From an uncultured Bryobacteraceae bacterium (GTDB lineage Bacteria > Acidobacteriota > Terriglobia > Bryobacterales > Bryobacteraceae): a DNA stretch of 64,000 nucleotides. The translations under genes and the position numbers were made by a program. Of this stretch, positions 38,634 to 41,030 are shown one piece after another; positions within the stretch are counted from its first letter, which is position 1, and the number at the start of each line of letters is the position of its first letter. Where the stretch lies: NCBI GenBank assembly GCA_937920635.1, contig CAKZUE010000008.1, positions 1-64,000 on the forward strand. Reading direction: 5' to 3'. The notes beneath the pieces are model-generated. The model worked only from the letters and a program-made list of their open reading frames with translations. It did not search any database and was not told where the DNA came from.

Positions 38634-39404
38634 ATGCGAATCGATCTAGCCGGACAGAGGGCGCTGGTGACAGGAGGCGCGCGGGGCATCGGCGCGGCGG
38701 CGGCGGAAGCTCTGCGAGCCTGCGGAGCGGAGGTGATCGTGATCGACAAACTGCGCGATCCGCCGGTGGATGTGACCGACACGCAGGCTCTGGAAAAAGC
38801 CTTTGCGCGCGCGGGCGATCTGGACATCGTGGTGGCCAACGCGGGCACGGCCGTGTTCCACCGCCTGGATGAAACCAGCGACGCCGAATGGCGCCGCCTG
38901 ATCGACATCAATCTGACGGGAATATTCCACACGGTGCGGCTGGCGGCCCGCGGAATGAAGCCGCGGCGGCGCGGCGCCATCGTGCTGACGGCGAGCACCA
39001 ACTCGTTCGACGGAGAAGCGGACCTGATCGCCTACAACGCCACCAAGGCGGGGCTGCTGGGCATTCTGCGCACAGCGGCCAATGAACTCGGCCCGTGGGG
39101 CATCCGCGTCAACGCCGTCTGCCCGGGGCTGATCCGCACGGATCTCACCGCCGCCCACTTCGCGCAGCCGGAGCTGCTGCGGGACTATTTCCGCCACATC
39201 CCGCTAGGCCGCGGCGGCGCGCCCGAGGAGGTGGCGCAGGCGATTGCATTCCTTGCCTCGCCGCTGGCGTCCTACATCAGCGGCGCGACACTGCTGGTCG
39301 ACGGCGGGCAGATGGCGGCCAAATTCAGCGTCTGGGACGAGCGCATGGGGCGCTTCGCCGGCGATCACTGGGAGCTCGCGGACTCGCCTTCCACCACCGC
39401 CTGA
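38634..39404 (+). CDS. SDR family oxidoreductase
   Basis: 256 residues from ATG 38634 (MRIDLAGQRALVTGGARGIG); an ATG at 38625 is also possible. Classical SDR: TGGARGIGAAAAEAL (TGxxxGxG), DVTDTQAL, DIVVANAGTAVF (a NAG variant), IVLTASTNS with catalytic Ser, IAYNATKAGLLGILRT (YxxxK), VNAVCPGLIRTDLT, and SGATLLVDGGQM. Substrate unknown. The last 40 bases overlap the 3' end of the convergent DUF72 gene. Confidence 0.87.
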   Translation: MRIDLAGQRALVTGGARGIGAAAAEALRACGAEVIVIDKLRDPPVDVTDTQALEKAFARAGDLDIVVANAGTAVFHRLDETSDAEWRRLIDINLTGIFHTVRLAARGMKPRRRGAIVLTASTNSFDGEADLIAYNATKAGLLGILRTAANELGPWGIRVNAVCPGLIRTDLTAAHFAQPELLRDYFRHIPLGRGGAPEEVAQAIAFLASPLASYISGATLLVDGGQMAAKFSVWDERMGRFAGDHWELADSPSTTA

Positions 39405-40333
39405 ATCGTGCCCGGGGCGTTGCCCTCGAGCCGGTTGTTCACGAACAGGAACGCCATCTGCCGGCGTTGCCGCGCGCGATCGATCAGCGCCCGCAGCGCC
39501 GAGCGCGCGCCCTCGTTGACCTCCTGGATGCGGTCATAGGGCTCGAACCGCGCCACCGCCTGCTCGTAAGTCCGCCCGTGGCGCAGCAGGGCGCGCGCCA
39601 CCAGGAAGTCCGCCGTATAGGCGGCTTCGATCTTCACCTGCTGCTCCAGCGGCGGCATGCGCGTCCAGGCGTTGAAGACGTGCGCCGCGCCGCGCCCCCG
39701 CAGCGATTCGAGGTACGGTTCATCGAGATACTCTTTGTTGCGGATCTCGACCGCATACCGCCAGCCGGCGGGCAGGGCGGCAAGGAAGCGGCGCAGATCG
39801 GCGGCGAACGGCTCGACGCTTTCGTAATGCCGCCTGCCCATCGTGCCAAACTCGAATATCAGCACGCCGATCTGCGCGGCGTACGGCTCGAGCGGCTCGA
39901 GAAACGCCCGCTGGAACAGGTCCGCGTCCAGAAAATGCTCGTTCGCCTTCCCCGCCCTGCCGCCGTACCGGGCATGGCCCGGCCATTCTTTGACCGTGAT
40001 CTCTTCGGGAACTTTCAAGCCGAAAAGCAGCCGCGGCGCCAGGCTGAACAACCTGCGCCAGTAGTCCCTCGACGGGAATTGATAGAAGGAAAAATCGCCG
40101 CCCACGGCGGGAAACACTTCCGCATATTCGGACAGGCATTCGGTCTCGAATTTCTTTTGTGAGAACCGCCCGCGCGTCGAGTAGCGCTCGCGTGTATAGA
40201 TCTGGCCGAGCCAGCCTTCGTATTTCCACGAGCTCGTGCCCAGATAGACCCCCTGCGCGGCCAGCTCGGCCAGGCGCGCCGCCAGGCGCTCGCGCGGCGA
40301 GGCGGGTTGAGCGAACAGCGGCAGAGACTCCAT
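39365..40333 (-). CDS. DUF72 (YecE-like) TIM-barrel protein
   Basis: 322 residues. The DUF72 hallmarks are YLGTSSWKYEGWLGQIY near residue 30, FPAVGGDFSFYQFPSRDYW, FGLKVPEEITVK, LEPYAAQIGVLIFEFG, WRYAVEIRNKEYL, and MAFLFVNNRLEGNAPGTIQA at the end, where YxYfNN.gG.A is usual. The fold is a TIM barrel with a possible Fe-S or nuclease-like role; experiments are few. It is divergent from lexA with 79 bases between the two starts, so it could share the LexA-controlled region, which is inference. Confidence 0.85.
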   Translation of the reverse strand: MESLPLFAQPASPRERLAARLAELAAQGVYLGTSSWKYEGWLGQIYTRERYSTRGRFSQKKFETECLSEYAEVFPAVGGDFSFYQFPSRDYWRRLFSLAPRLLFGLKVPEEITVKEWPGHARYGGRAGKANEHFLDADLFQRAFLEPLEPYAAQIGVLIFEFGTMGRRHYESVEPFAADLRRFLAALPAGWRYAVEIRNKEYLDEPYLESLRGRGAAHVFNAWTRMPPLEQQVKIEAAYTADFLVARALLRHGRTYEQAVARFEPYDRIQEVNEGARSALRALIDRARQRRQMAFLFVNNRLEGNAPGTIQAVVEGESASSQ

Positions 40334-40377: not shown

Positions 40378-40410
40378 TTGACACAGGCGCAAAAAGTGTA
40401 AATAATTACA
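40378..40410 (+). promoter_or_regulatory. lexA promoter with a palindromic candidate operator
   Basis: TTGACA at 40378-40383 and AATAAT at 40401-40406 are spaced by 17 bases, a near-consensus sigma-70 promoter. The expected start of transcription falls at about 40413, on the lexA ATG itself. TGTAA (40397-40401) and TTACA (40406-40410) form an exact inverted repeat with a 4-base spacer that covers the -10, the place where a LexA autorepression site would be expected. Promoter strength is read directly; LexA binding is inference. Confidence 0.65.
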
Positions 40411-40412
40411 TC

Positions 40413-41030
40413 ATGAAGTTGACAGCCCGGCAGCAGGAGATCTACGACTACATCCTCGCCTACCGGCGCGAGAACGGGTGCTCGCCCTCGATCCCCGAGA
40501 TCCAGCGCCAGTTCGGCATCCGCAGCCCGAACGGGGTGGCGGGACACCTCCATGCTCTGGAGGCCAAGGGGGTCATCCGGCTGTCGAGCCGCGGCTCGCG
40601 GTGCGTCGACGTGCCCGCGGATCCAGCGCTGGAAGCGCGTGTGACGCCTCTGCCCGTTTTCGGCGCGATCCCCGCGGGTCCGCCGCAGTCGGTCGCGCCT
40701 GCCATGGCGGAAGGCGATGCGTGGCTCGACGAAACGCTGCTCGGCTTCCGCCCGAAGCCCGGCTCCTTCCTGCTGAAAGTGCGCGGCGATTCGATGAAGG
40801 ACGCCGGCATTCTGGACGGCGATCTGGTGCTGGTGGAGCCGAACCCGGCGCCGCGCGCAGGGCAGATCGTGGCGGCGCTGATCGACGGCGAATCGACGCT
40901 GAAGCGGCTGGTGAAGGTGCGCGGTGCGTGGTTTCTGAAGGCGGAAAACCCCGCCTATCCGGAGTTGCACCCGCGCGCGGACCTGGTGATCCAGGGCGTG
41001 GTGCGCACGGTGATCCGGCGGATGCCTTGA
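40413..41030 (+). CDS. lexA: LexA repressor / SOS response regulator
   Basis: 205 residues. N-terminal winged helix: LTARQQEIYDYILAYRRENG, PSIPEIQRQFGIRSPNGVAG, HLHALEAKGVIRLS. The S24 autocleavage domain follows, with cleavage expected between Ala88 and Gly89 in VFGAIPAGPP, catalytic Ser127 in VRGDSMKDAGILDGDLV and Lys164 in STLKRL. RecA-stimulated self-cleavage relieves repression of DNA-repair genes. No Shine-Dalgarno precedes the ATG and the promoter -10 ends 6 bases upstream of it, consistent with a leaderless message. ATG is fixed by the family start. Confidence 0.95.
   Translation: MKLTARQQEIYDYILAYRRENGCSPSIPEIQRQFGIRSPNGVAGHLHALEAKGVIRLSSRGSRCVDVPADPALEARVTPLPVFGAIPAGPPQSVAPAMAEGDAWLDETLLGFRPKPGSFLLKVRGDSMKDAGILDGDLVLVEPNPAPRAGQIVAALIDGESTLKRLVKVRGAWFLKAENPAYPELHPRADLVIQGVVRTVIRRMP

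Follow-up and report, generated by a model that had tools for sequence, protein, structure and literature searches.

A predicted operator of a lineage-specific LexA overlies the -10 element of a probably leaderless lexA gene in Bryobacteraceae

The window analyzed here, the whole stretch of 64,000 nucleotides from an uncultured Bryobacteraceae bacterium, carries a lexA gene on its forward strand (lexA1, 40413 to 41030), preceded on the same strand by its promoter. A TTGACA -35 element (40378 to 40383) is followed by a 17-nt spacer (40384 to 40400) and an AATAAT -10 element (40401 to 40406), and the latter lies within the perfect 5-N4-5 palindrome TGTAA-ATAA-TTACA (40397 to 40410), which we predict to be the operator of LexA1. 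The palindrome, TGTAAATAATTACA, overlaps the -10, ends 2 nt from the lexA ATG (40413 to 40415), and is flanked as G-TGTAA...TTACA-T. Direct reading of the sequence confirms the arrangement proposed in the sequence-only reading of this DNA, namely TTGACA-17-AATAAT before lexA with a palindrome on the -10. On the opposite strand a DUF72 gene (PF01904 by Pfam; 39365 to 40333) diverges from lexA1, with 79 bp between them; in a signature scan, DUF72 appeared at the matching place in 21 of 42 LexA1-type loci versus none of 36 Verrucomicrobia-like loci. The lexA1 operator could act on both lexA1 and this divergent gene.

The 205-aa product of lexA1 scores 153.3 bits against the LexA repressor model TIGR00498 (cut-off 110.95) and lies above the cut-offs of PF01726 (LexA DNA-binding domain) and PF00717 (S24 peptidase). 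By alignment to solved E. coli LexA chains, its DNA-reading helix is S38-P39-N40-G41-V-A-G-H-L-H-A-L (codons at 40524 to 40559), where E. coli has SPNAAEEHLKAL, and S38, P39, N40, G41 and G44 are invariant in 13 LexA1 proteins. Also invariant in the 13, and aligned to E. coli LexA, are the self-cleavage bond A88-G89 (40674 to 40679), the catalytic serine S127 (40791 to 40793; E. coli S119) and the catalytic lysine K164 (40902 to 40904; E. coli K156). The E. coli cleavage bond is A84-G85, as given in an excerpt of PMC3091678.

An alternative in-frame ATG for lexA1 lies upstream at 40332. We prefer 40413 as the start, because the whole frame of 5 of 13 orthologues is only 209-218 aa and has no room for the longer version, and because the box, with at most two mismatches, stands 2-9 nt before a 40413-type ATG in 41 of 42 orthologous promoters; the exception (L171) has a GTG start and a box with four mismatches. 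Textbook spacing places the expected transcription start of a -10 that is six nt from the ATG at the A of that ATG. The lexA1 gene is likely leaderless, with an mRNA that would start at the ATG, because its -10 has this distance and no Shine-Dalgarno sequence is present; leaderless genes are recognized by a -10 that precedes the start codon by about 6-8 nt and by the lack of a Shine-Dalgarno, and lexA1 shows both. The Shine-Dalgarno score at the window gene is -0.1 kcal/mol (no match), and the median hybridization of lexA1 upstream regions to the anti-Shine-Dalgarno is +0.4 kcal/mol, with 1 of 41 at -5 or below (41 of 42 promoters, that of L171 with its GTG having been dropped). For recA the median is -7.05, with 16 of 18 at -5 or below, the 18 being those of 29 recA loci that a script located. 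The contrast is weaker with the gene for a second LexA, lexA2, discussed below (median -3.35; 9 of 24 at -5 or below), and with random 20-mers of the window (-3.0); 35 window coding frames give -6.2 when the best start of each is chosen. The lack of a Shine-Dalgarno at lexA1 is partly forced, because the AT-rich box fills most of the scored stretch.

Forty-two lexA1 promoters were compared, that of the window and those of 41 of 44 LexA1-type loci, the remaining three (L170, L180 and L182) being cut by a contig end. Titles of the 41 loci name Bryobacterales, Bryobacteraceae or other Acidobacteriota, apart from two that name another phylum: "Arcobacter sp." (L139, DYJN01000006.1; LexA1 94% identical) and "Acidimicrobiia" (L159, VFZE01000075.1; 69%), titles that look mislabeled. 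The box is exact in 18 promoters and has one mismatch in 21, two in 2 and four in 1, so that 39 of 42 deviate from it by no more than one letter; after shuffling of the upstream regions, 0.01 exact boxes are obtained per 42. Most mismatches stem from the right half, which reads TTATA for TTACA in 21 of the 42. In the left half, A occupies position 4 in all 42 promoters and position 5 in 41. A script with a narrow search range found a perfect TTGACA in at least 23 of the 42. In six Bryobacter-like loci (L166, L173-L176 and L178) the box is exact and in the same place, no -35 was recognized, and TATACT (GATACT in L175) lies just 5' of the box. Since the box is kept where no -35 is recognized, the operator is separable from the -10 and is not merely a -10.

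The window genome (4.15 Mb; 4,147,848 bp in 91 contigs) contains three exact copies of TGTAAN4TTACA and none of the reversed pattern, which was the control for motif counts. One is separated by 2 nt from the start codon of lexA1; the others precede the ATG of the gene for a Y-family polymerase (398 aa, with IMS domains) by 8 nt and that of recA by 15 nt. From the background in genomes without LexA1, a given 30-nt promoter stretch would be expected to hold a site about 3 times in a million. The expectation that the motif would recur at other SOS promoters of the same genome was thus borne out at recA and the Y-family polymerase, and a LexA-regulated SOS network is characterized by one operator shared by lexA, recA and a translesion polymerase gene. 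With one mismatch allowed the genome has 10 sites versus 6 in the control, and a looser pattern gives 51 forward matches versus 135, below the control. Because these counts are near or below control, only the exact sites stand out, and the predicted regulon of this genome consists of lexA1, recA and the Y-family polymerase gene. We considered whether weak sites enlarge it and rejected the idea, since the seven one-mismatch sites lie in or near frames in which no SOS gene was recognized by eye. With the three exact sites all accounted for, none is left for uvrA. A second DnaE gene like that of G001-G004 was not found in the window genome. Genes behind sites, here and below, were named mostly by eye; family models were applied to one imuA-like, one dinB and two dnaE-like genes and to recA of G000 and G085.

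In all five genomes of the genus (G000-G004) lexA, recA and the Y-family polymerase gene each have an exact site, and these genes account for 15 of the 16 exact sites there (reversed control 0), and in G001-G004 the second DnaE gene has a one-mismatch box, TATAA-N4-TTACA, ending 2 nt before its ATG. Across the family a genome was counted as having LexA1 when its match to the LexA1 alignment exceeded 200 bits, as was so in 23 of 101; elsewhere no match scored above 136 bits. In 13 LexA1-containing genomes 24 of 30 exact sites precede lexA1, recA or a translesion gene (control 8); in all 23 of the 101-genome sample 34 of 45 are so assigned (control 29), and to the other 11 no such gene was assigned. 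Exact sites precede recA outside the window genus in G009, G074, G125 and G085, dnaE-like genes (PHP/pol III alpha type) in G017, G074, G125, G085, G096 and G093, dinB in G017 and G110, and, in G011, an imuA-like gene that scores under the cut-offs of both the RecA and the ImuA model. The search at dnaE2 and imuA suggested by the sequence-only reading succeeded among relatives, in which the motif precedes dnaE2-like genes and an imuA-like gene as well as dinB. In G015, G016, G035, G106 and G109 no SOS gene has an exact site, and G015, G016, G035 and G109 have a one-mismatch box at lexA1. At recA of the 13 LexA1-containing genomes the box is exact in six, has one mismatch in two (G011, G016), two in one (G015) and three in one (G019), and there is no LexA1 box in the other three (G017, G029, G035). 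The Y-family polymerase clade (50-100% identity) is present in 17 of 101 family genomes, all of them among the 23 with LexA1 and none among the other 78 (Fisher p 1.3e-14, with shared descent not corrected for); the box before this gene is exact in 12, has one mismatch in 5 and two in 1 of the 18 readable starts from the 19 genomes, over all samples, with the gene.

The 78 genomes that lack LexA1 show no excess of the motif, with 34 exact sites versus 68 in the control. In the 16 of 17 such genomes whose recA was matched strongly, no exact site lies at that gene, nor is any of the 8 exact sites in LexA1-lacking genomes of the smaller sample at recA; 6 of the 34 were read for their surroundings, and none is at an SOS gene. 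Absent from recA and not in excess where LexA1 is lacking, the motif behaves as though these genomes were natural knock-outs.

The window genome also encodes a second LexA, LexA2 (220 aa, contig C20), and LexA2-like matches of 94-138 bits occur in 95 of 101 family genomes, 73 of which lack LexA1. A direct repeat, TTCGC-N6-TTCGC, is exact at 10 of 24 LexA2-type promoters and, by eye, degenerate in some others; no exact copy was found in the lexA1 loci L002, L003 and L013. In 13 of 16 LexA1-lacking genomes the exact repeat occurs in the sequence examined for short RecA-like, imuA-like genes (imuA-like by eye), mostly directly before the start where this was read. Among LexA1-containing genomes, we noted it before recA in G017 (L063) and before an imuA-like gene in G016 (L235). 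How the SOS genes are divided between the two regulons seems to vary from genus to genus. Exact TTCGC-N6-TTCGCC gives 32 strand matches versus 33 in the control across the five genus genomes, and because this search is not enriched, the only site taken up beyond lexA2 is the one conserved in all five genomes. That site (L274, L276, L272, L255 and L283, position 1501; G000-G004) lies 8-9 nt before a radical-SAM-like gene (NPYRGCE.GC.YCYAR, by eye) and 37-38 nt before a divergent gene; the radical-SAM-like gene is a likely LexA2 target. We rejected TGTAA-N4-TTACA as a family-wide LexA box, because LexA2 genes carry the direct repeat and the motif shows no excess without LexA1. The idea of a lineage-specific LexA motif therefore holds, but for LexA1 only, the type to which the second LexA belongs having another box. 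Going by the title of a 2006 paper by Mazon, Acidobacterium capsulatum reportedly acquired an alphaproteobacterial lexA laterally. LexA2, with its period-11 repeat, looks to be of this type, which comes from the same phylum; LexA1, in contrast, is a separate lineage with a palindromic box. LexA2 is thus probably the known acidobacterial kind and LexA1 a second line. The alphaproteobacterial LexA box, in an excerpt of PMC8565304, is the period-11 direct repeat GTTC-N7-GTTC.

Three other readings deserve weight. If the palindrome were merely an AT-rich -10, symmetric by chance, LexA1 would bind elsewhere or not regulate its own gene; AATAAT does suit a -10, and the box overlaps it. Yet the 42 promoters hardly vary at the left TGT and the final A, neither of which is part of the -10; recA and the Y-family polymerase gene have the same motif with a likely -10 (TATACT and TACACT) in another register; and the box persists in the promoters with no recognizable -35. 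We consider this reading very improbable, and the palindrome as a chance feature of a -10 was rejected on the three exact sites against none in the control and on the 39 of 42 promoters. Just as slight is the chance that another regulator uses the palindrome. LexA2 would be a candidate, being encoded in the same genome, and similar palindromes may serve other proteins: one LexA1-lacking genome (G014, locus L075) has two TGTAAN4TTACA sites, at 1501 and 2571, beside a LacI-type regulator gene, and these are perhaps that regulator's own palindrome. But LexA2-like proteins occur in nearly all family genomes with no excess of the motif where LexA1 is absent, and LexA2 genes and imuA-like genes bear a different, direct repeat.

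The third reading concerns only the start of the transcript, and we judge it unlikely, although it has more to commend it: rather than being leaderless, lexA1 may be transcribed with a short 5' leader or from a promoter farther upstream. The box-to-ATG distance is 2 nt in 21 of 42 promoters and other than 2 nt in the remaining 21 (5 nt in 11), and an in-frame ATG is available at 40332. In 20 of the 42 orthologues 4-9 nt separate the box from the ATG. Leaderlessness in the strict sense is therefore not conserved, and a leader a few nucleotides long may exist in orthologues with the longer distance. Against a leader in the window stand the TTGACA-17-AATAAT-6-ATG arrangement, the 2-nt distance shared by half of the promoters, the lack of a Shine-Dalgarno (itself partly forced by the AT-rich box) and the Y-family polymerase genes of the five genus genomes, in which TACACT lies 6 nt before GTG or ATG. 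Leaderless genes, moreover, are predicted at an average of 13.3% in 3 acidobacterial genomes in the portion of PMC3160421 consulted.

We therefore favor, at a probability of about 0.9, the reading in which the palindrome is the operator of the adjoining, lineage-specific LexA1, which would control its own gene together with recA and a Y-family polymerase gene, and in which lexA1 mRNA most likely begins at the ATG. An operator of this kind, on the -10 of a probably leaderless gene, is what the sequence-only reading had suggested, and the comparative evidence supports it. A LexA1 dimer bound to TGTAA-N4-TTACA would cover the -10 and shut off lexA1, and the same box would silence recA and the gene for the Y-family translesion polymerase; in relatives it would likewise silence dinB, a dnaE2-like gene or an imuA-like gene. 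Upon DNA damage, RecA filaments would provoke self-cleavage of LexA1 at A88-G89, presumably through S127 and K164, and the genes would be released, lexA1 with an mRNA predicted to begin at its ATG. This circuit seems, from the sequences compared, to run beside the bacterium's ordinary LexA2 system.

The LexA1 box resembles that of E. coli in its TGT-N8-ACA core and in the spacing of CTGT-N8-ACAG, and the proteins share the S-P-N of the helix and the self-cleavage residues; it differs in that the outer CTG...CAG is absent at the window box (there is a C on one side at recA), the inner letters are AA..TT, and the AAEE of the helix is GVAG in LexA1. The window box does not match GAAC-N4-GTTC of Firmicutes either. 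The earlier statement that it is neither CTG-N10-CAG nor GAAC-N4-GTTC is accurate for both patterns, but the shared TGT-N8-ACA brings it closer to E. coli than that statement allowed; the predicted box is a variant with E. coli half-site spacing, not a new kind. No report of TGTAA-N4-TTACA as a LexA box was recognized among the open-licence papers listed (Erill 2016 and Mazon 2006 lie outside that scope). Pseudomonas putida also has two LexA proteins with different boxes, in another phylum and with other motifs. In Leptospira interrogans, again of another phylum, LexA1 and LexA2 likewise have different boxes in one cell, and the LexA2 there bound TTGTA-N10-TACAA, present in its own promoter and absent from the others tested, according to an excerpt of PMC3789691. 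The TTAC-N3-GTAA of Bdellovibrio LexA is, like the LexA1 box, a short AT-rich palindrome, but with the opposite half-site order and another spacing, and E. coli LexA has over 40 target genes compared with the three predicted in the window genome (both from excerpts of PMC8565304).

The next-best relatives of LexA1 are Verrucomicrobia-like LexA proteins (at least 36 loci, 43-49% identity) among the 80 of 154 matches kept from a pattern-based scan, and the lexA promoters of 77 of these 80 were read. Most Opitutae loci have TGTTC-N4-GAACA, ending 2 nt before the ATG, with the reading helix ASPFGI, and Limisphaerales-type loci have ACTGTAT..ATACAGT-like boxes in the same place with RSLNSV. Erill and coworkers reportedly described TGTTC-N4-GAACA as the Verrucomicrobia LexA box in 2016. 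LexA1 shares with these proteins a clade and a 5-N4-5 palindrome directly before the lexA ATG, but it has TGTAA and RSPNGV in place of TGTTC and ASPFGI; the occurrence of N with TGTA and of F with TGTTC is no more than suggestive. The tree comprised 36 Verrucomicrobia-like rows, 21 LexA2, 15 of 41 LexA1 and two other LexA proteins, with other phyla left out. In it LexA1 forms one clade (SH-aLRT 96), within a clade (97) that also takes in L026 and every one of the 36 Verrucomicrobia-like rows, and LexA2 stands apart (98); an earlier, thinner tree with 19 of the 36 Verrucomicrobia-like loci agrees on the placement of LexA1. L026 (G037, same order, other family) encodes, at a contig end, a LexA 44% identical to LexA1; its branch is long and arises among the Verrucomicrobia rows, so that these do not form a single clade.

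LexA is known for shifting its binding motif. We speculate, tentatively and at somewhat less than even odds, that LexA1 is a foreign SOS switch in the midst of a take-over: a Verrucomicrobia-related LexA would have brought along a translesion polymerase of its own, exchanged the half-site TGTTC for TGTAA as its reading-helix residue went from F to N, and captured recA (and in places dnaE2, dinB and imuA-like genes) from the alpha-type LexA2, which would keep its own gene, imuA-like genes and perhaps the radical-SAM gene. Throughout, the box would have kept its place across the start of a leaderless lexA, with the promoter elements and the half-site changing. A diverged second LexA that retakes the network once the first is lost has been postulated, in an excerpt of PMC8565304. 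This one family includes genomes with the old LexA alone and others with both, and because recA in the latter stands behind one box, the other, or neither, a hand-over might be traced one gene at a time. The lineage offers two natural variables, the reading-helix residue and the inner half-site, for following how the specificity of LexA changes.
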